DNA of 64,000 bases from Haloarchaeobius salinus (GTDB lineage: Archaea > Halobacteriota > Halobacteria > Halobacteriales > Natrialbaceae). The DNA is taken from the NCBI RefSeq assembly GCF_024464185.1, contig NZ_JANHAU010000001.1, forward strand, positions 372,001-436,000. The letters run 5' to 3'. Below, in pieces: positions 3,938-13,488 of this stretch; the first letter of the stretch is position 1; each line of letters starts with the position of its first letter. Both the position numbers and the translations under genes were made by a program. The notes below the pieces were generated by a model that was given only the letters and a program-made list of their open reading frames with translations, made no database searches and had not been told where the DNA came from.

Positions 3938-4248
3938 GGACACCAGTTACCTGGGAGGCTGTAAAAAACCAGGGCCAATCCGTGTGGAGTGTTCGCACGA
4001 ACCGCGAAACCGCCTGACGTGCAAGCGTTGCCTGCCCGCAAGGTTTTAATAGCGACCTCGTTGTAACTGTGTGTACGATGAGGCAGCACCGCGACCTACG
4101 CGCTCGCACTCCTTCCGCGAGCGGTGTTGCCGTCCGACGACCGCGACCACGACCGGCCCGTTAGGGCCACACTCATTCATCCCCAGCGCTGGGCACAGTT
4201 TGCAACTAACTCCGGCGGACGTCAGTCCGCCAGTCTTCACGACACTCA
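3938..4248. promoter_or_regulatory. Divergent promoter region and long structured leader of argG
   Basis: Reading rightward, a TTTTAAT box (4044-4050) lies about 31 nt before an ATG at 4078 and about 200 nt before argG. No other good TATA box is seen nearer argG, so argG probably has a leader of about 170 nt, which is long for this class. The leader contains a 28-codon Arg-rich ORF (4078-4164), a 5-bp hairpin over its stop codon (4155-4168), a 12-nt palindrome (4182-4193) and a perfect 7-bp hairpin with a 4-nt loop (4214-4231) ending 17 nt before the argG ATG. Transcription start and regulation are inferred. Confidence 0.5.
4078..4164 (+). CDS. Candidate arginine-rich leader peptide upstream of argG
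   Basis: The ORF encodes 28 residues, nine of them Arg (codons AGG, three CGC, four CGA, one CGT), with the Arg codons concentrated toward the 3' half. Its ATG is about 31 nt after the only good TATA-like box, so it could be translated from a leaderless message before argG. A hairpin overlaps its stop codon and a stronger one precedes argG. This is the layout of bacterial amino-acid attenuators, which I do not know to be described in haloarchaea. Caution: Arg codons are frequent in random reading frames of this GC-rich DNA, so chance is a real alternative. Confidence 0.35.
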   Translation: MRQHRDLRARTPSASGVAVRRPRPRPAR

Positions 4249-5526
4249 ATGACACACACGACATCTGACGGCGACACGGACACACACGAAACGGGCGGCA
4301 AAGTAGCACTCGCGTTCTCGGGCGGGCTGGACACCACGGTCTGTGTCCCACTGCTCGAGGAGGAGTACGGCTACGACGAGGTCATCGGCGTCACGGTCGA
4401 CGTCGGCCAGCCGGCGGCCGAGTTCGACGAGGCCGAGGAGACGGCCGAGGCGCTCGGACTCGAGCACTACGTCGTCGACGCGAAGGACGAGTTCGCCGCG
4501 CTCTGTCTCGACTCGGTGACCGCGAACGCGACGTACCAGGGCTACCCGCTCGGGACCGCGATGGCCCGCCCGGTCATCGCGAAAGCCATCCTCGAGGTCG
4601 CCATCGAGCAGGGCTGTACCGGCATCGCCCACGGCTGCACGGGCAAGGGCAACGACCAGCTCCGCTTCGAGGCGGTCTGGCGCGACTCCGACCTCGAGGT
4701 CATCGCGCCGGTGCGCGAACTCGGGCTCACCCGCGAGTGGGAACAGGAGTACGCCGCCGAGAAGGAGCTGCCCGTCGAGGGCGGTAACGAGGGCGACTGG
4801 TCCATCGACACGAACCTCTGGAGCCGCTCGGTCGAGGGCAAGGACCTCGAGGACCCGAGCTACCAGCCGCCGGAGGACATCTACGAGTGGACGACCGCGC
4901 CGGGTGCCGAGACGACGACCATCACCATCGAGTTCGAGGAGGGCTACCCCGTCTCCGTGACCACCGCGGACGGCGAAGGTGGCGAGTTCGAACCGGTCGA
5001 GCTCATCGAGTTCCTCAACGAGTACGCCGGCGCGTACGGCGTCGGTCGCACGGACATGATGGAGGACCGCATGCTCGGCCTGAAGGTGCGCGAGAACTAC
5101 GAGCACCCGGCCGCGACGGTCCTCATCACCGCCCACGAGGCGCTCGAACAGCTCGTGTTCACGAAGGACGAGCGCGACTTCAAGCCGCAGGTCGAGAACC
5201 AGTGGGCACAGAAGGCCTACGAGGGCCTCATCGACGCGCCCATCATGAAGTCGCTGAACGCCTACGTCGCGGCGAGCCAGGAGACGGTGACCGGGACGGT
5301 GACGGTCAAGCTCCAGGGCGGGACGGTCCGCCCGGTCGGCCGCGAGAGCGAGCACGCGGTCTACTCCGAGTCGGCGGCGTCGTTCGACACGGAGACCGTC
5401 GACGGCATCGCACAGGAGGACGCGACGGGCGTCGCCAAGTACCACGGCTTCCAGGCTCGCCTCGCCAACGCTGGAAACACAGCACAGGAAGAGGAGACAG
5501 ATGTCGAACTCACCGCGGACGACTGA
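4249..5526 (+). CDS. argG: Argininosuccinate synthase
   Basis: The enzyme joins citrulline and aspartate with ATP to make argininosuccinate, the penultimate step of arginine synthesis. At 425 residues it has the family's length. The N-type ATP pyrophosphatase P-loop AFSGGLDTT is near residue 22. GVTVDVGQ and the GCTGKGNDQLRFE substrate/ATP segment follow. An acidic, Thr-rich N-terminal tag of about 16 residues precedes the conserved KVALAFSGG. It is the first structural gene of the arginine locus, downstream of the long leader, and its TGA is almost joined to the argH start (TGAGATG). Confidence 0.97.
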   Translation: MTHTTSDGDTDTHETGGKVALAFSGGLDTTVCVPLLEEEYGYDEVIGVTVDVGQPAAEFDEAEETAEALGLEHYVVDAKDEFAALCLDSVTANATYQGYPLGTAMARPVIAKAILEVAIEQGCTGIAHGCTGKGNDQLRFEAVWRDSDLEVIAPVRELGLTREWEQEYAAEKELPVEGGNEGDWSIDTNLWSRSVEGKDLEDPSYQPPEDIYEWTTAPGAETTTITIEFEEGYPVSVTTADGEGGEFEPVELIEFLNEYAGAYGVGRTDMMEDRMLGLKVRENYEHPAATVLITAHEALEQLVFTKDERDFKPQVENQWAQKAYEGLIDAPIMKSLNAYVAASQETVTGTVTVKLQGGTVRPVGRESEHAVYSESAASFDTETVDGIAQEDATGVAKYHGFQARLANAGNTAQEEETDVELTADD

Positions 5527-5527
5527 G

Positions 5528-7078
5528 ATGGCCGGCTTCGGCGGCGACGACGGGGAGTTCGGCCTCGGCGGGAGCGACGCCGACGACCTCCCCGACGCTG
5601 ACGCCGACGGCTTCGGCGGGAGCGACGGGACCGCGGTCCGCGGCGACCGCTTCAGCGGCGGCCCGGCCCGTGGGTTCCTCTCGTCGCTCGCCGACGACGA
5701 GCGCATCTTCGCGGCCGACGTGGCCGTCGACCGCGCACACGTCGTCATGCTGGCCGAACAGGGCATCATCGACGACGACACCGCATCGAAGATACTCACG
5801 GCGCTGAACGTCGTCGAGGTCGAGGGCCACGCCGCGCTGCCGGAGGGCGAGGACGTCCACGAGGCCATCGAGACGGCGGTCGTCGAGCAGGTCGGGCCCG
5901 ACGGCGGGAAGATGCACACCGCCCGCTCGCGCAACGACGAGGTGGCGACCTGTATCCGCTACCGGCTGCGCGGGGACCTGCTCGCGGCGGCCGCGACGGT
6001 CTGTGACCTCCGCGCCGTGCTGGTCGAGGCCGCCGACGAACACGCGGAGACGACGATGCCCGGCTTCACGCACCTGCAGCACGCCCAGCCGACGACGGTC
6101 GGGCACTACCTGCTGTCGTACGAGTCGGCGCTCGCGCGCGACACCGAGCGTCTCCTCGATGCCTTCGAGCGCGTGAACCGCTCGCCGCTCGGCGCGGCCG
6201 CGTTCGCGGGGACGCCGTTCGACGTGGACCGCGAGCGCACCGCCGAGCTGCTCGGCTTCGACGAGACCATCACGAACGCGACCGACGCGGTCGCCGCCCG
6301 CGACTTCCTCGTGGAGTCGGCGGCCGCGCTGGCCGCGCTCGCGACGACCCTGTCGGGGCTCGCGGAGGACGTGATCATCTTCGCGAACCAGGGCTATCTG
6401 GAGCTCTCGGACGACTACTCGTCGACCTCCTCGATCATGCCCCAGAAGAAGAACCCGGACACGTTCGAGCTCGTCCGCTCTGTCGCGGGCGACGCCTCGG
6501 GCAGTCTGACGGGGCTGCTGACGACGCTGAAGGGGCTCCCCCGCGCGTACAACCGCGACCTGCAGAACGCGACGCCGCACGTCTGGGCGACGGTCGACGC
6601 CGTCACCGAGGCGACCGAGGTCGCGGCGGGCGGCGTCGCCACCGCGACGTGGAACGAGGAGACGCTGGCCGCCGAGGCCGGCTCGAACTTCTCGACGGCG
6701 ACGGGCGTCGCCGACCTGCTCGCGATGGCGGGCCTGCCGTTCCGCACGGCCCACGAGGTCGTCGCGACGGCCGGCCAGCTCGCGAGCGCGGCCGGCACGG
6801 AGCCCGACTACGCCATCATCGACGAGGCCACCCAGCAGACCATCGACGAGTCCATCGCGGCGTACGTCGAGCGCGAGGCGGTCGAGACGGCGCTCGACCC
6901 GGCCGCGAGCGTGACGATGCGCGACTCGCCCGGCGGCCCCGCGCCCGACGCCGTCGCCGATGCACTGAACGAGGCCGAGCGCTGCCTCACCAGCGACCAG
7001 GCGGTCGTCGAGGGTATCAGCGAGGGGCTGGACGACGCCCACGACGAACTCACCGCGGAGGTGACCGACTATGTCTGA
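5528..7078 (+). CDS. argH: Argininosuccinate lyase
   Basis: The enzyme splits argininosuccinate into arginine and fumarate. The fumarase/aspartase superfamily signature SSIMPQKKNPD is encoded near 6430-6460, and the HTARSRND and TTMPGFTHLQHAQPT segments are intact. I use the ATG at 5528, two bases after the argG stop; an in-frame ATG at 5501 would overlap argG by 26 nt and add nine residues. Either way, about 37 Gly/Asp/Ser-rich residues precede the conserved RGDRFSGGPARGF start, longer than I expect for haloarchaeal ArgH. It is co-transcribed with argG. Confidence 0.95.
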   Translation: MAGFGGDDGEFGLGGSDADDLPDADADGFGGSDGTAVRGDRFSGGPARGFLSSLADDERIFAADVAVDRAHVVMLAEQGIIDDDTASKILTALNVVEVEGHAALPEGEDVHEAIETAVVEQVGPDGGKMHTARSRNDEVATCIRYRLRGDLLAAAATVCDLRAVLVEAADEHAETTMPGFTHLQHAQPTTVGHYLLSYESALARDTERLLDAFERVNRSPLGAAAFAGTPFDVDRERTAELLGFDETITNATDAVAARDFLVESAAALAALATTLSGLAEDVIIFANQGYLELSDDYSSTSSIMPQKKNPDTFELVRSVAGDASGSLTGLLTTLKGLPRAYNRDLQNATPHVWATVDAVTEATEVAAGGVATATWNEETLAAEAGSNFSTATGVADLLAMAGLPFRTAHEVVATAGQLASAAGTEPDYAIIDEATQQTIDESIAAYVEREAVETALDPAASVTMRDSPGGPAPDAVADALNEAERCLTSDQAVVEGISEGLDDAHDELTAEVTDYV

Positions 7079-7272
7079 GCACGACGTGGCGGTGGCCCCA
7101 CGCCCACCACTGCCACCAGTCCCCCGACGGGGACGAAATATTTAGAATCCGAAATCAGAATCCGGATTCACTCGATTTGGACGCACAGAAACCAGTTAGA
7201 GGCCTCACTACTTGTATAATTTATTTGGTAGGTTCGCAATCTTTAAGTGATGTCGGCGTCGATGGACAGGTG
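7071..7272 (+). promoter_or_regulatory. Promoter and possible operator between argH and argW
   Basis: This stretch is clearly more AT-rich than its surroundings. CTTTAAG (7241-7247) lies about 29 nt before the argW ATG, giving a leaderless start; an alternative TATAATTTA lies at 7215-7223. A perfect 12-nt palindrome GAATCCGGATTC (7158-7169), preceded by a partial copy GAATCC (7145-7150), could bind a dimeric regulator. A 24-codon ORF (7071-7145) starts inside the last codons of argH (ATGTCTGA) and encodes a Pro/Arg-rich peptide of unclear meaning. The argW-F genes can therefore be transcribed separately from argGH. Confidence 0.5.
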
Positions 7273-7437
7273 ATGACAGAATGCGTCGAATGCGGGGCAG
7301 AACTGTCCCTGCACACGGACCTCGAAGCCGGAGAGATCGTCGACTGTACCACCTGCGGCGCGGAGCTCGAAGTGATCGAGGACGACCCCGTCACACTGGA
7401 CGTGGCACCCGAGCTGGCCGAGGACTGGGGTGAGTAG
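7273..7437 (+). CDS. argW: ArgW/LysW amino-group carrier protein
   Basis: This 54-residue acidic protein has a zinc ribbon made of CVEC (residues 4-7) and CTTC (residues 25-28), and it ends in the diagnostic EDWGE. The C-terminal Glu is the attachment point for the alpha-amino group of the substrate, which stays protein-bound through the following steps. Related carriers serve lysine synthesis in Thermus and both lysine and arginine in Sulfolobus. Its place between argH and the argX-argF genes indicates arginine/ornithine synthesis here. The ATG is supported by a TATA-like box 29 nt upstream. Confidence 0.95.
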   Translation: MTECVECGAELSLHTDLEAGEIVDCTTCGAELEVIEDDPVTLDVAPELAEDWGE

Positions 7438-7494
7438 GATGACGGGGCTGGCACAGGCACTCCCGACGCGAGACCGCGAGGCGGGGTGGGCGGC

Positions 7495-8373
7495 GTGAAG
7501 GTCGGACTGCTCTACTCGCGCATCCGCCGGGACGAGAAGCTCCTGCTCGCGGAACTGCGCGAACGCGACCACGAGGTCGTCAAGATCGACGTGCGGAAAC
7601 AGCAGTTCGACCTCCACGACGCGCCCGAGTCGTTCGACGGGCTCGACGTGGTGCTCGACCGCTGCATGGCGACCTCGCGGAGCCTCTACGCGACGCAGTT
7701 CTGCGAGGCCTACGGCATCCCGGTCGTCAACGCGGCCGAGACCGCCGAGGTCTGCGCGGACAAGGCGAAGACGAGCCTCGCGCTCGCGAACGCGGGCGTC
7801 CCCACGCCCGAGACGAAGGTCGCGTTCACCACGGACGCCGCGCTCTCCGCCATCGAGTCGTTCGGCTACCCCTGCGTCCTCAAGCCGGTCGTCGGCTCGT
7901 GGGGTCGGCTGCTGGCGAAGGTCGAGTCGCGCTCGGCCGCCGAGGCCATCCTCGAGCACAAGGCGACGCTCGGCCACTACGAGCACTCGGTGTTCTACGT
8001 CCAGGAGTTCGTCGGCAAGCCGGACCGCGACCTGCGCGTGCTCGCCACCGACGGCGAGCCCGTCGCGGCGATGGCGCGCTCGTCGGACCACTGGCTCACG
8101 AACGCCGCCAAGGGCGCGGAGACGGCGGAGTTCGACCTCGACGACGAGGTCCGCGAGCTCGTCCAGCGCGCCAGCGACGCGGTCGGCGGCGGCCTGCTCG
8201 GCGTCGACCTCATGGAGACCGACGAGGGCGGCTACACCGTCCACGAGGTCAACCACACGGTCGAGTTCAAGTCGCTCAACGACGCGACCGCCGTCGACGT
8301 GCCGGCGAAGGTCGTCGACTGGCTCGAGTCGGTCGTCGAGCCCGGACTGGAGGCCGCGGAGGTGACGGCGTAG
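7495..8373 (+). CDS. argX: Glutamate-ArgW ligase (ArgX/LysX, ATP-grasp)
   Basis: The enzyme uses ATP to link the amino group of glutamate to the C-terminal Glu of ArgW, starting carrier-protein-bound ornithine synthesis. The RimK-like ATP-grasp fold is shown by KVGLLYSRIRRDEK at the N-terminus, the PCVLKPVVGSWGRLL ATP-binding segment (about residue 130) and VNHTVEFKSLN near the C-terminus. I start at the GTG at 7495 (VKVGLLYS); a GTG at 7486 would add only three residues. The last codon runs into argC (TAGTG), implying coupled translation. Sequence alone cannot exclude that alpha-aminoadipate is also used. Confidence 0.93.
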   Translation: MKVGLLYSRIRRDEKLLLAELRERDHEVVKIDVRKQQFDLHDAPESFDGLDVVLDRCMATSRSLYATQFCEAYGIPVVNAAETAEVCADKAKTSLALANAGVPTPETKVAFTTDAALSAIESFGYPCVLKPVVGSWGRLLAKVESRSAAEAILEHKATLGHYEHSVFYVQEFVGKPDRDLRVLATDGEPVAAMARSSDHWLTNAAKGAETAEFDLDDEVRELVQRASDAVGGGLLGVDLMETDEGGYTVHEVNHTVEFKSLNDATAVDVPAKVVDWLESVVEPGLEAAEVTA

Positions 8374-9446
8374 TGGGGACCACCGCTGCGACCGACGCCG
8401 ACACGGACGCGGAGACGAAGACCGCCGGCGTCGTCGGCGGCTCCGGCTTCGCCGGCGGGGAGCTCCTGCGCCTGCTCGACGGCCACCCGAACTTCGAGCT
8501 CGTGCAGGCGACGAGCCGCGAGTATGCCGGCAAGTCCATCGGCGGCGTCCACCCGAACCTCCGGGGGCGCGAACTCCGCTTCTCGGAGCCCTCGGACCTC
8601 GAATCGGTCGACGTGCTGTTCACGGCGACGCCCCACGGCGTCACGATGGAGTACGTCGACGACTACCTCGACGCCGCGGACCTGCTCGTCGACCTCTCGG
8701 CGGACTTCCGCCTCGCCACCGAGGGACAGTACGACGAGTGGTACGACGGCCACACATCCCCCGAGTACCTTGACGTGGCCGAGTACGCGCTGCCCGAACT
8801 GAACCGCGAGAACCTGCAGGATGCGGACATCATCGCCTCCGGCGGCTGCAACGCGACGGCGACGCTGCTCGGGCTGAAACCGCTCGCCGACGCGGGCGTT
8901 CTGGACGACGCACACGTCGTCGTGGACGTGAAGGTCGGCAGCAGCGAGGGCGGCGCGGGCGGCGGCGCGGCCTCCAGCCACGCCGAGCGCTCGGGCGTCG
9001 TCCGCCCGTACGCGCCGACGGGACACCGTCACGAGGCCGAGATCGAGGAGTGGCTCGGGCTCTCCGTCTCGTTCACCTGCCACGCCGTCGACATGGTGCG
9101 TGGCGCGAGCGCGACCTGCCACGTGTTCCCCGACGGCCCCGTCTCGAAGAAGGACCTCTGGACGGCCTACCGCGGCGCGTACGAGGCGGAGCCGTTCGTC
9201 CGCCTCGTCGCCGGCGGCTCGGGTTCGTACCGCTACCCCGAACCGAAGGCCGTCGCCGGCACGAACTACGCCGACGTGGGGTTCGAACTCGACCCCGGGA
9301 ACAAGCGGGTCGTGGTGTTCTCGGCCATCGACAACGTGATGAAGGGCTCGGCCGGGCAGGCGGTCCACGCCGCCAACGTCGCGCTCGGCTTCGACGAGAC
9401 GGCGGGACTCGAGTTCGCGGGGCTGCACCCCGTGGGGAGTCCGTAG
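8373..9446 (+). CDS. argC: ArgW-glutamyl-phosphate reductase (ArgC/LysY)
   Basis: The enzyme reduces the ArgW-bound gamma-glutamyl phosphate to the semialdehyde using NADPH. The 357-residue protein carries a dinucleotide-binding turn GVVGGSGFAGGELL (about residues 16-29), the catalytic-cysteine motif ASGGCNATATL (about residue 160) and the C-terminal AIDNVMKGSAGQAV common to ArgC enzymes. The GTG start shares one base with the argX stop. About 15 acidic residues precede the Rossmann fold. It is followed directly by argB with no gap. Confidence 0.94.
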   Translation: MGTTAATDADTDAETKTAGVVGGSGFAGGELLRLLDGHPNFELVQATSREYAGKSIGGVHPNLRGRELRFSEPSDLESVDVLFTATPHGVTMEYVDDYLDAADLLVDLSADFRLATEGQYDEWYDGHTSPEYLDVAEYALPELNRENLQDADIIASGGCNATATLLGLKPLADAGVLDDAHVVVDVKVGSSEGGAGGGAASSHAERSGVVRPYAPTGHRHEAEIEEWLGLSVSFTCHAVDMVRGASATCHVFPDGPVSKKDLWTAYRGAYEAEPFVRLVAGGSGSYRYPEPKAVAGTNYADVGFELDPGNKRVVVFSAIDNVMKGSAGQAVHAANVALGFDETAGLEFAGLHPVGSP

Positions 9447-10304
9447 ATGGCGGTTGTCGTCAAGGTCGGCGGCGCACGCGCGGTCGACCCCCAGGGTGCA
9501 CTGGCCGACGTGGCCGACCTCGTCGAGTCGGGCGAGCAGGTCGTCGTCGTCCACGGCGGCTCCACCGCGGTCGACGAGACGCTCGAATCGCTCGGCATGG
9601 AGCCCGAGTACGTCGAGACGCCCGGCGGCGTCGTCGGGCGGTTCACCGACGAAGAGACCATCGAGGTGTTCCAGATGGTCATGCCCGGGAAGCTCAACAC
9701 CGGGCTCGTCGAGTCGCTCCAGAGCGAGGGCGTGAACGCGGTCGGGCTCTCCGGTGTCGACGGCGGCCTGCTCGAAGGGCCGCGCAAGTCCGCCGTCCGC
9801 GTCCTCGAAGACGGGAAGAAGAAGATCCGCCGCGGCGACCACTCCGGCACCATCGAGTCGGTGAACGTCGACCTCCTCGACACCCTGCTTTCCGGGGGGT
9901 ACACGCCCGTCGTGACCGTCCCGATGCTCGGCGCGGAGGGCGACGGCACCTACACCGCGGTCAACGCCGACGCCGACCGCGCCGCCGCCGCCGTCGCTGG
10001 CGCACTCGGCGCGGACCTCGTCGTCCTCACCGACGTCTCCGGCGTCTACGCGGACCCCGAGGACGAGTCGACGCGCATCGACAGCGTCGAGACGGCAGCC
10101 GACTGGGACGCGCTCGAAACCGCGGCGGAGGGATTCATGACCCGGAAGGTGCTCGCGGCCGAGGAGGCGCTCTCCGGCGGCGCGTCGTCGGTCGTCGTCG
10201 CCACCGCGAACGCCGACGCACCCATCCAGTCCGCGCTTTCGGGCGACGGGACGACGCTGCTGCCGAGCGCGCTGGATGACGAGAAGAAGGAGGTGAGCCG
10301 GTAG
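9447..10304 (+). CDS. argB: ArgW-glutamate kinase (ArgB/LysZ)
   Basis: This amino-acid kinase of 285 residues phosphorylates the gamma-carboxylate of ArgW-bound glutamate. The family fold is seen in VVKVGGA at the N-terminus, VVVHGGSTAVDE (about residue 35), GLSGVDGGL (about residue 98) and the ATP-site region DADRAAAAVAGALGADLVVLTDV (as blocks around residues 173-194). Its ATG follows the argC stop immediately and argD follows its own stop immediately, so argC, argB and argD are packed without spacers. Confidence 0.94.
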   Translation: MAVVVKVGGARAVDPQGALADVADLVESGEQVVVVHGGSTAVDETLESLGMEPEYVETPGGVVGRFTDEETIEVFQMVMPGKLNTGLVESLQSEGVNAVGLSGVDGGLLEGPRKSAVRVLEDGKKKIRRGDHSGTIESVNVDLLDTLLSGGYTPVVTVPMLGAEGDGTYTAVNADADRAAAAVAGALGADLVVLTDVSGVYADPEDESTRIDSVETAADWDALETAAEGFMTRKVLAAEEALSGGASSVVVATANADAPIQSALSGDGTTLLPSALDDEKKEVSR

Positions 10305-11438
10305 ATGCCCGCCGACTTCGTCTTCTCGCGCAAGCCCATCACCATCGAGCGCGGCGAGGACGTGTACCTCTACGACGACTCGGGGACCGAGTACCTGGAC
10401 ATGGGCGCGAGCTACGCCTGCGTCCCCGCCGGCCACGGTCACCCGGACATCGTCGAGGCCGCACAGTCACAGCTCGCCGACCTGACGTTCGTGCAGGGTT
10501 CGTACCCGACGAGCGCCCGCGACGAGCTGTACGAGAAGCTGTCGTCGGTCGCGCCGCCGGGGCTGGACAACGTCTGGCTCTGCAACTCCGGCACCGAGGC
10601 CAACGAGGCGGCGCTGAAGTTCGCCCGGAGCGCGACGGAGGGTACAAAATTCGTCGCGACGAAGCGCGGCTTCCACGGCCGGACGATGGGCGCGCTGTCG
10701 ACGACGTGGAAGCCGAAGTACCGGAAACCGTTCGAGCCGCTACTGGACGACGTCGAGTTCGTGGACTACGGCGACGGCGAGGCCATCGCCGAGGCGGTCG
10801 ACGACGACACCGCGGCGGTCATCCTCGAACCCGTCCAGGGCGAGGGCGGCGTCAACCCGAGCACGACGGCGTTCCTGCAGGCCGCCCGCGAGGCGACCGA
10901 TGACCACGGCGCGGCGCTCGTCTTCGACGAGGTCCAGACCGGCCTCGGCAGGACGGGGACGTTCTGGGCCTGCGAGGCCGCCGGCGTCACGCCCGACGTG
11001 GTGACGACGGCGAAGGGGCTCGCCAACGGCCTGCCGATGGGCGCGACGCTCTGTGCCGACTGGGTCGCCGAGGAATCGGGCCCGCACGGCTCGACGTTCT
11101 CGGGTGGCCCCGCCGTCTCCGCGGCGGCGGCGGCGACGCTCGACACCATCGTCGACGACGACCTGCCCGGCAACGCCGCGGCGGTGGGCGACTCCCTCGT
11201 CGACCAGCTCTCGGACCTGCCGGTGCGTGACGTGCGCGGCGAGGGGCTGCTCGTCGGTATCGAGGTCGGACGCGGCGCGAACCGCGTCCTGCGCGACCTC
11301 GCCATCGAGCACGGGATCCTCGCGCTCCCGGCGGGCCGGACCGTCGTGCGTCTGCTCCCGCCGCTGACGATGACCCGGGAGCACGCCGACCAGGTCGTCG
11401 CGGCGCTCGAGGCCACGCTGGAGGTGACGGAGGCGTGA
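10305..11438 (+). CDS. argD: ArgW-glutamate-semialdehyde aminotransferase (ArgD/LysJ)
   Basis: This is a class III PLP-dependent aminotransferase that converts the carrier-bound semialdehyde to carrier-bound ornithine with glutamate as donor. It has 377 residues. Visible marks are CNSGTEANEAALKFAR (cofactor phosphate region, about residue 90), FDEVQTGLGRTG (about residue 207) and the PLP lysine in VVTTAKGLANG (about residue 230). The gene ends in GTGA shared with the argE start, which implies translational coupling. Confidence 0.94.
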   Translation: MPADFVFSRKPITIERGEDVYLYDDSGTEYLDMGASYACVPAGHGHPDIVEAAQSQLADLTFVQGSYPTSARDELYEKLSSVAPPGLDNVWLCNSGTEANEAALKFARSATEGTKFVATKRGFHGRTMGALSTTWKPKYRKPFEPLLDDVEFVDYGDGEAIAEAVDDDTAAVILEPVQGEGGVNPSTTAFLQAAREATDDHGAALVFDEVQTGLGRTGTFWACEAAGVTPDVVTTAKGLANGLPMGATLCADWVAEESGPHGSTFSGGPAVSAAAAATLDTIVDDDLPGNAAAVGDSLVDQLSDLPVRDVRGEGLLVGIEVGRGANRVLRDLAIEHGILALPAGRTVVRLLPPLTMTREHADQVVAALEATLEVTEA

Positions 11439-12556
11439 GCGACGCGGCCGTGGCCGACGGCGGGACGGTCTCCGACGCCGCCGCGCGGGACCTGCTCGAA
11501 TCCATGGTCGCCATCCCCTCGCCGTCGGGCGAGGAGCACGCGGCCGCCGAGCACCTGCGCGACTTCCTGCTGGACCACGGCCGCAGGGCGTGGCTGGACG
11601 ACGTGGGCAACGTCCGGGCACCCGGCGACGATTCGGTGCTGCTGACCTCGCACGTCGACACCGTTCCGGGAGACGTGCCCGTCGGTATCGAGACCCCCAG
11701 CGCCGGCGACACCGAGGACCCTATCCCGTGGGGAGGCGGCGACGAGGCACCCCAGAATGCCGCCGTCCTCCGGGGTCGGGGCAGCGTCGACGCGACCGGC
11801 CCGCTCTGTGCGATGGCCGTCGCGGCGGTGCGGACCGGCGTCTCCTTCGCCGGCGTCGTCGGCGAGGAGACCGACTCCCGCGGCGCGCGCCACCTGGTCG
11901 CCGACCGCGAGGCACCCGACGCGGTCGTCAACGGTGAGCCCTCGGGCTGGGACGCCGTGACGCTCGGCTACCGCGGCTTCCTCGCCGGGACCTACCGCGC
12001 CGAGACCGAGGCGGGCCACAGCTCGCGCCCGGAAGCGAACGCCATCCAGCACGCGATGTCGTGGTGGAACCGGGTCGAACGCGCGTTCGAGTCAGGCGAC
12101 GACGCCGTCTTCGAGTCGGTGACGGCCAAGCCGGTCGACGTCTCCGGCGGCGTCGCCGACGACGGGCTGTCCGTCGCAGCGGAGATGTCGGTGCAGTTCC
12201 GCATCCCGCCGGGCAGCAGCGCGGCCGGGATACGCGAGACGGTCGAGGCAGAACTCGCCGACGGCGCGGGTACAATCGAGTGGCGCGACGCCATCCCGCC
12301 CGTGCTCGACAGCCCGCGCAGCGAGGTCGGGCGCGCGTTCCGCGTCGGCATCCGAGAGCGAGGGGGCTCCCCTCGCCTCCTCAAGAAGACCGGAACGGCC
12401 GACGTGAACCTGTTCGCCGGCGCGTGGGACTGCCCGATGGCCACCTACGGCCCGGGTGACTCCGCACTCGACCACGCCCCGGACGAACGCCTCGCACTGC
12501 CCGAGTACGACCGCGCCATCGCGGTCCTCGAGACCGTCTGCGACGACCTGCAATGA
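11435..12556 (+). CDS. argE: ArgW-ornithine hydrolase (ArgE/LysK, M20 family)
   Basis: This zinc peptidase of the M20 family releases ornithine from the C-terminal Glu of ArgW, regenerating the carrier. It has 373 residues from a GTG that overlaps the argD stop. Metal-ligand motifs are LLTSHVDTVPGD (about residue 70), GRGSVDATGPL (about residue 112) and VVGEETDSRGARHL (about residue 140); the late GTADVNLFAGAW segment is also typical. The acidic N-terminal 18 residues are not conserved in the family. An ATGA overlap joins it to argF. Confidence 0.93.
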   Translation: MSDAAVADGGTVSDAAARDLLESMVAIPSPSGEEHAAAEHLRDFLLDHGRRAWLDDVGNVRAPGDDSVLLTSHVDTVPGDVPVGIETPSAGDTEDPIPWGGGDEAPQNAAVLRGRGSVDATGPLCAMAVAAVRTGVSFAGVVGEETDSRGARHLVADREAPDAVVNGEPSGWDAVTLGYRGFLAGTYRAETEAGHSSRPEANAIQHAMSWWNRVERAFESGDDAVFESVTAKPVDVSGGVADDGLSVAAEMSVQFRIPPGSSAAGIRETVEAELADGAGTIEWRDAIPPVLDSPRSEVGRAFRVGIRERGGSPRLLKKTGTADVNLFAGAWDCPMATYGPGDSALDHAPDERLALPEYDRAIAVLETVCDDLQ

Positions 12557-13488
12557 GCACACACACCGACGTGACATCCACGAACCCAGCACAGCCACCG
12601 AAGCACTTCCTCACCGTCGACGACCTGTCGGCGGCCGAGCTCCAGTCCGTCCTCGATCTCGCGGCCGAGTACAAGGCCGCCGTCGAGAACGGCGAGTCAC
12701 ACGGCGACCTCGGGGGCAAGACGCTCGCGATGCTGTTCGAGAAGCCCTCGACGCGCACCCGCGTCTCCTTCGAGACGGGGATGACCCAGCTCGGCGGCCA
12801 CGCCGTCTTCCTCGGTCCGGAGGACACACAGCTCGACCGGGGCGAGCCGGTGAAGGACACCGCCCGCGCGCTCTCTGGCTACGTCGACGCCATCATGGCC
12901 CGCGTGTTCGACCACGACGACCTGACCGAGCTCGCGGCGTACGCCGAGGTGCCCGTCGTCAACGGCCTGACCGACGACGCGCACCCGTGCCAGACGCTCG
13001 CCGACCTGCTGACCATCCAGGAGCTGTTCGGCGGCTTCGAGGACGTGACGGCTGCCTGGGTCGGCGACGGCAACAACGTCGCCAGCTCGTTCGCCGTCGG
13101 CTGTGCGATGGTCGGCATCGACCTCACCGTCGCCTGTCCCGACGGCCACGGGCTGGACGACGAGGTGCTCGACGCGGCGGCCGAGGCGGGGTCGGCACCG
13201 ACGGTGACGACCGACCCGGAGGCCGCGGTCGCCGACGCCGACGTGGTCTACACCGACGTCTGGGTGAGCATGGGCGAGGACGACGCGAAGGTCGACGACT
13301 TCGACGGCTTCACCCTCGATTCGGCGCTGCTCGCGGGCACCGACGCGAAGGTGATGCACTGTCTCCCGGCGGTCCGCGGCCAGGAGATAACCGACGACAC
13401 CATCGAGAGCGAGCGCTCGGTCGTCTGGCAGCAGGCGGAGAACCGGATGCACGCCCAGAAGGCGCTGCTCGCGACGCTCGTCGGGTAG
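12553..13488 (+). CDS. argF: Ornithine carbamoyltransferase
   Basis: The enzyme transfers a carbamoyl group to ornithine, giving citrulline for ArgG. The 311-residue protein has the carbamoyl-phosphate motif EKPSTRTRVSFE (about residue 57), AHPCQTLADL (about residue 145) and the ornithine-site motif MHCLPAVRGQE (about residue 273). It ends the operon. Its TAG directly abuts the stop of the convergent membrane gene (TAGCTA), leaving no intergenic space for a terminator. Confidence 0.96.
   Translation: MSTHTDVTSTNPAQPPKHFLTVDDLSAAELQSVLDLAAEYKAAVENGESHGDLGGKTLAMLFEKPSTRTRVSFETGMTQLGGHAVFLGPEDTQLDRGEPVKDTARALSGYVDAIMARVFDHDDLTELAAYAEVPVVNGLTDDAHPCQTLADLLTIQELFGGFEDVTAAWVGDGNNVASSFAVGCAMVGIDLTVACPDGHGLDDEVLDAAAEAGSAPTVTTDPEAAVADADVVYTDVWVSMGEDDAKVDDFDGFTLDSALLAGTDAKVMHCLPAVRGQEITDDTIESERSVVWQQAENRMHAQKALLATLVG

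Follow-up and report, generated by a model that had tools for sequence, protein, structure and literature searches.

The fungal arginine attenuator peptide of arg-2 and CPA1 is encoded by an upstream ORF and acts on translation through its conserved amino-acid sequence. In the pyrBI operon of Escherichia coli, the leader ORF ends within its terminator hairpin, and the ribosome itself blocks that hairpin, with no antiterminator hairpin involved; UTP is sensed via polymerase pausing. In mycobacteria, leaderless polycysteine short ORFs reportedly attenuate cys operons, a finding attributed to Canestrari and colleagues in 2020. Bacterial attenuation of the trp, his and ilv type, in the scheme of Yanofsky (1981, cited in PMC8576121), combines a leader peptide bearing codons for the product with a downstream hairpin, and starvation is sensed by ribosome stalling. 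That work is cited in PMC9031893, and the mycobacterial ORFs were first noted in PMC4633059.

According to PMC8576121, nearly nothing is known about transcription-translation coupling in archaea; a review of that coupling does not mention attenuation (PMC8116511), and searches of an open-access library turned up no leader-peptide attenuator from an archaeon. The leader described here precedes argG in haloarchaea; by analogy with the bacterial cases it looks like a bacterial-style, ribosome-based amino-acid sensor, the first archaeal case as far as those searches reach, and it bears on the question of whether archaeal coupling is close enough for regulation. It is most like the mycobacterial polycysteine ORFs, with which it shares a short ORF (predicted here to be leaderless), a C-terminal run of codons for the end product, a place upstream of a biosynthetic gene and a conserved position. 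Those ORFs differ in being bacterial, in encoding cysteine and in working with another polymerase and termination system, whereas the argG leader has its stop codon in the loop of a covarying hairpin, a run limited to CGA and CGG, and archaeal hosts.

The window, that is, the whole 64,000-nt stretch of Haloarchaeobius salinus DNA that was analysed, carries the leader and the genes behind it on the forward strand. A TATA box read from the sequence, TTTTAATA (4044–4051), lies about 31 nt 5′ of an ATG at 4078 and represents the putative leader promoter. This ATG opens an unannotated ORF of 28 codons (4078–4164) encoding MRQHRDLRARTPSASGVAVRRPRPRPAR and closed by a TAG at 4162–4164. Nine of its codons specify arginine (four CGA, three CGC, one CGT and one AGG), and 84 nt separate its end from the ATG of argG (argininosuccinate synthase, 4249–5526; PF00764, PF20979). 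Behind argG follow argH, a small ORF (7281–7433), argX, argC, argB, argD, an argE-like M20 gene and argF (together 5501–13488), identified by Pfam. An earlier note on this DNA had reported the box and its spacing, the arginine content of the ORF, its distance from argG and the position of argG at the head of a full arginine locus; the coordinates and counts are exact, and Pfam matches run from argG through argF.

The nearest named argG loci belong to Haloarchaeobius iranensis and Haloarchaeobius sp. FL176. Among the six members of the genus compared, the TATA box (kept in 6/6), the ATG, the ORF length, the hairpin at the ORF end (hairpin B) and most of the last 16 codons are retained, and codons 6–12 differ (MRQHRDLRARTP... 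vs MKQHRSHLAHSF...).

Counterparts of this ORF occur across the class. For comparison we fetched 80 named haloarchaeal argG loci, and we searched with a covariance model (R1) of the leader core, which comprises the Arg run, hairpin B and the tract that follows it. The gene argG is present in all 195 genomes of class Halobacteria, and the core model matches 167 of them; where an argG position was listed, 120 of 121 matches fall 35–202 nt upstream of the aligned argG start on the same strand. Fourteen further genomes gave no match, a weak one or a misplaced one, and inspection by eye of their argG-upstream regions revealed a diverged leader in 14 of 14, for instance MTAEARRDPALFRQRRAPRPRRAVRPPRPVSGAARRPAP before the stop in one genus and a GTG-started form in another. 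Close relatives of Haloferax volcanii carry MATRST(F/C)ATFAPLRAAAVRPRRRAL, again up to the stop, before argG. Searched with the same model, the wider phylum outside Halobacteria yielded chance-level matches only, and the matches in the window's own genome other than the argG leader have E-values of at least 0.056 and were taken as chance. Rfam covariance models gave no match up to E = 1 in the window or up to E = 0.5 in six relatives. The leader is real, class-wide and absent from Rfam.

Hairpin B was located at 81 loci, and at 79 of these an ORF that runs into the hairpin begins at an ATG preceded by a TATA-like core. The distance from core to ATG is 29–34 nt in all 79 scored loci, a narrow spacing that was not itself a selection criterion, the criterion having been a TATA-like core at 22–38 nt. 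Such spacing predicts transcripts whose 5′ end coincides with the start of the ORF, in other words a leaderless start. The ORF varies from 22 to 53 codons, and its peptide is variable (mean column identity 29%), with M1 and one C-terminal Arg as the only invariant residues. What is conserved while peptide and length vary is the predicted leaderless start, the frame, the CGA/CGG run, hairpin B and the G-free tract. The earlier note had proposed looking in relatives for a short Arg-rich ORF kept at leaderless spacing while its other residues vary, and such an ORF was found class-wide.

Codon and frame counts were made on 50 non-redundant haloarchaeal leaders, from which near-duplicates had been removed. 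Over the 12 codons that precede hairpin B, the frame of the ORF contains 239 Arg codons and the other two frames 119 and 80. When these bases are shuffled with dinucleotides preserved, the count is 137 ± 10 with a maximum of 172 (300 shuffles), with the qualification that the leaders share ancestry and are not independent trials; the arginine enrichment over shuffled sequence that the earlier note had proposed as a test is present. The combination of ATG spacing, stop position and at least three Arg in the last nine codons occurs in 44 of 50 real leaders and in 0 of 2000 shuffled regions, the same lack of independence applying. The distance from ATG to hairpin takes 21 different values, and codon −2 before hairpin B, read in frame with the ATG, is Arg in 50/50. 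In clades where hairpin B has moved by one base the Arg run moves along with it, and the in-loop stop is in frame in most. Counted by codon (n = 50), Arg occurs 50, 34, 30 and 35 times at positions −2 to −5, and 21, 16, 16 and 7 times from −6 on.

A chance ORF is rejected on class-wide conservation together with the shuffles. The same counts bear on whether the conserved stretch is a protein-binding element in DNA or RNA (CGACGACC plus the hairpin) with the ORF incidental. Strong nucleotide conservation of CGACC-GG and of the tract speaks for such an element, but a frame with a leaderless ATG held through 21 spacings, a stop in that frame within the hairpin, and the excess of Arg in one frame over the other two leave it hardly credible. 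On its sequence features, it is very probable that the leader is translated, that it serves as a sensor of arginyl-tRNA and that it regulates argG in cis.

Directly 3′ of the Arg run stands hairpin B (4155–4168), which in the window is a perfect GGCCC-GTTA-GGGCC with the stop TAG (4162–4164) in its loop, a placement that the earlier note overlooked. The stem recurs in clade variants (GGGCC/GGCCC, GGCCC/GGGCC, GGGGTC/GACCCC, GGGCTC/GAGCCC). Its covariation score is 0.188, compared with 0.085 ± 0.015 in shuffles, and about five rows of alignment A2 are one base out of register, so that the paired-cell count for the hairpin is conservative. The stop codon falls inside hairpin B or at its edge in 72 of 79 loci. 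At four loci (L023, L024, L027 and L029) the frame passes through the hairpin unstopped and ends 65–77 nt after the hairpin start, so an in-loop stop is not strictly required.

Upstream of the run, hairpin A (4082–4131) lies within the 5′ two thirds of the ORF, with a folding z of −3.6 in the window and a mean z of −1.7 over 49 leaders; its covariation is modest in Natrialbales-type leaders (9 two-sided cells vs 3.4 ± 1.7 in shuffles). Downstream of hairpin B lies a G-free tract with a C block at its end, ACACTCATTCATCCCCA (4169–4185). Over 50 leaders, positions +2 to +17 are almost without G and C reaches 64–80% at +14 to +17; the tract has no T stretch, the longest T run being at most 4 in 49 of the 50.

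Two elements further downstream, the ones that the earlier note had considered relevant, were rejected as regulatory. The palindrome CCCAGCGCTGGG (4182–4193) is found in only 4 of 6 genus members, and hairpin C (GGCGGAC-GTCA-GTCCGCC, 4214–4231), just 5′ of argG, was traced within the genus, where its pairing is kept in 6/6 species, one of them with a G-U pair. The relevant hairpin is hairpin B. As a separate observation, in three Halovenus-like loci (L062, L073 and L083) the stretch from hairpin B to argG contains, just 5′ of the gene, interleaved inverted repeats, CCGCCC ... GTCGGGT ... GGGGCGG ... ACCCGAC; these might fold into a pseudoknot or into either of two hairpins that exclude each other.

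The earlier note had treated Arg codons in general as control codons. The Arg run is indeed kept, but its conserved content is specifically CGA and CGG. In the window the control codons read CGA CGA CCG CGA CCA CGA CC (4135–4154). Among the last nine codons of the 50 leaders, Arg is encoded by CGA 153 times, CGG 59, CGT 5 and CGC 4; outside this run, these ORFs have CGC 49, CGT 18, CGA 12, CGG 11 and AGR 3. CGA and CGG thus make up 212/221 (96%) of Arg codons in the run vs 23/93 (25%) in the rest (Fisher p = 7e-38 for CGR vs CGY, run vs rest). In argG at these loci, CGC accounts for 77% and CGA for 1.7% of Arg codons, and in the long ORFs of the window CGA accounts for 7%. tRNA-Arg(UCG) can read both CGA and CGG, whereas CGC and CGT need tRNA-Arg(GCG); the window's own genome has five of five tRNA-Arg isoacceptors. 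Because CGA and CGG dominate the run while being scarce elsewhere, the run looks built to sense the charging of one isoacceptor. Avoidance of structure fails to explain the missing CGC, since CGG, which is as GC-rich, is common. Elsewhere in the same genome (L205, C2:921600-926000) some 15 tRNA genes, an extra tRNA-Arg(TCG) among them, form a dense array; it is unlike the scattered chromosomal tRNAs and is possibly a mobile element or provirus.

The codon bias also weighs on a nascent-peptide explanation, in which an Arg/Pro-rich C-terminus would stall the ribosome at the stop in response to arginine, in the manner of the fungal arginine attenuator peptide. In both systems an upstream ORF precedes an arginine gene, and R-P-G/A-x-stop recurs at the C-terminus of the leader peptides. 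Those residues, however, are dictated by the 5′ arm of hairpin B (GGGCC gives PG and GGCCC gives PA), the rest of the peptide outside the Arg run is, unlike the fungal one, unconserved, and arrest by the peptide leaves the preference for CGA/CGG over CGC unexplained. We consider it very improbable.

Like leaders of the trp and his type, the argG leader is a short ORF enriched in codons for the product, its control codons are biased to scarce or isoacceptor-specific codons, a hairpin lies downstream, and starvation would be read as stalling. We tested three candidate alternative pairings, of the Arg run plus hairpin B with downstream sequence and of the arms of B with the 5′ half of the leader. 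Compared with shuffles in 50 leaders, their mean z values are −0.09, 0.24 and 0.23; none is conserved, no conserved antiterminator was found, and a classical antiterminator switch is rejected. Because the exclusive antiterminator fold and a U-run terminator are both missing, we keep the leader out of the trp/his/ilv type, from which its leaderless start also sets it apart. As to the suggested change of folding on stalling, no two conserved folds were found that exclude each other, so a ribosome that sterically blocks the hairpin is a better fit than a classical switch.

The leading mechanism is that the leader acts as a cis-acting, ribosome-mediated transcription attenuator of argG in which the ribosome sterically blocks hairpin B, a statement to which, taken whole, we assign a probability of about two in three. 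The general direction of the earlier note, an arginyl-tRNA-sensing leader acting on a hairpin, is the best explanation, with its choice of hairpin, its fold switch and its codon set corrected. From the parts, the geometry, the frame and the linkage to argG, all present in the sequence, we infer each dynamic step as follows. Transcription would start within a few bases of the ATG at 4078, and a ribosome following RNA polymerase would load on the 5′ AUG. If charged tRNA-Arg(UCG) is plentiful, the ribosome would reach the stop and depart, hairpin B would fold, and most polymerases would terminate in or past the G-free tract, either intrinsically or aided by FttA/aCPSF1. Under arginine shortage, the ribosome would stall on CGR codons 5–14 nt upstream of hairpin B, cover its 5′ arm and perhaps shield the tract, so that polymerase continues through argG and on into the other arginine genes. 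The part of antiterminator would thus fall to the ribosome, making an alternative RNA fold unnecessary.

The geometry is consistent with such blocking. From the codon in its A site, a bacterial ribosome extends about 12 nt in the 3′ direction. Hairpin B begins 5–14 nt after the starts of codons −2 to −5, so a ribosome there would cover or abut the 5′ arm, and the drop in Arg density beyond −5 fits, since a ribosome stalled further upstream would not reach it. The steric logic is common to pyrBI and the argG leader; the signal would be charged tRNA-Arg here and is UTP in pyrBI.

Several observations stand against attenuation. There is no conserved antiterminator, and at four loci the frame passes through the hairpin. 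The T5C terminator of H. volcanii has no match in the tract, which is poor in T. Hairpin B would be covered by a terminating ribosome as well and could then fold only after ribosome release, so a paused polymerase would be needed. Since neither a conserved antiterminator nor a T stretch was found, the termination step is one that we infer by analogy. In one H. volcanii reporter a hairpin terminated 59% of transcripts, T stretches being stronger (PMC7237163), and RNA polymerase and transcription factors co-isolate with translation factors in that species (PMC8576121). On U-rich RNA, FttA cleaves the transcript and brings about termination, and a role as monitor of transcription-translation coupling has been proposed for it (PMC11616081).

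That last proposal also favours a different account, in which translation of the leader governs factor-dependent termination: the C-rich, G-free tract would be the loading or termination site of FttA/aCPSF1, masked by the ribosome or exposed, and hairpin B would only position or protect it. An unstructured G-free tract of 17 nt follows hairpin B across clades with no canonical T stretch, as this account would have it. FttA, however, prefers U-rich RNA (PMC11616081) and the tract is C-rich, and a conserved, covarying hairpin B is needless for a pure loading site, so we regard the account as unlikely. Steric attenuation at hairpin B, in its fuller form as archaeal ribosome-mediated transcription attenuation by a class-wide, isoacceptor-specific (CGA/CGG) sensor of arginyl-tRNA that combines a leaderless ORF, a stalled ribosome blocking the hairpin that contains its own stop, and possibly FttA-assisted termination, is in our judgement somewhat better than an even bet.

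The leader could instead be an independent small gene or a trans-acting small RNA, with argG driven mainly by its own promoter. A second TATA box does lie 24–36 nt before argG in 55 of 79 loci, where the leader cannot control every argG transcript, and the leader RNA would be only ~100–130 nt. In the other 24 loci, including the window, this box is missing, so argG is probably read there from the leader promoter on a shared transcript. Moreover, the leader adjoins argG and is not found elsewhere, and its peptide is unconserved; taken together, these points make an independent gene quite improbable. The second promoter is seen in Haloferax loci; Halobacterium and Haloarchaeobius lack one. In L012, L032, L013 and other Natrialbales/Haloferacales loci, the stretch ~30–110 nt before argG holds the promoter-like second TATA box and, 5′ of it, a conserved operator-like sequence, e.g., GGTTAGCAGNCGCTCTAT or TATAGGCATCTCTA; the class seems to have two argG promoter architectures.

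If attenuation by a stalled ribosome holds, bacterial-style attenuation logic would work with an archaeal polymerase, and an attenuator conserved among Haloferax, Halobacterium and related genera would make coupling a reporter question in genetically tractable strains. Two further things would be predicted: short ORFs of a kind missing from annotation, and an archaeal context for conditional termination, consisting of a stop in a hairpin loop followed by a G-free tract.

We rejected a general system of such leaders: none precedes trpC in 25 relatives, and the apparent ORFs before leuA overlap the known leuA-Halobacteria RNA (Rfam RF03001). That RNA is likewise a cis-regulatory candidate before a haloarchaeal amino-acid biosynthesis gene, but it differs from the argG leader in sequence and structure. 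In L143, L148, L160 (reverse strand) and L163:290-342, the conserved leuA element is overlapped by a leaderless short ORF, EDRGSRxxAAGREI, and two frames overlying the element are open and similar across genera. In L154, L156 and L140 a different leaderless short ORF, MTG(E/G)RFIRG..PR, precedes leuA; it overlies an inverted repeat that resembles GTTTTATTCGGGGGTTCCCCCGAA and lies near the gene.
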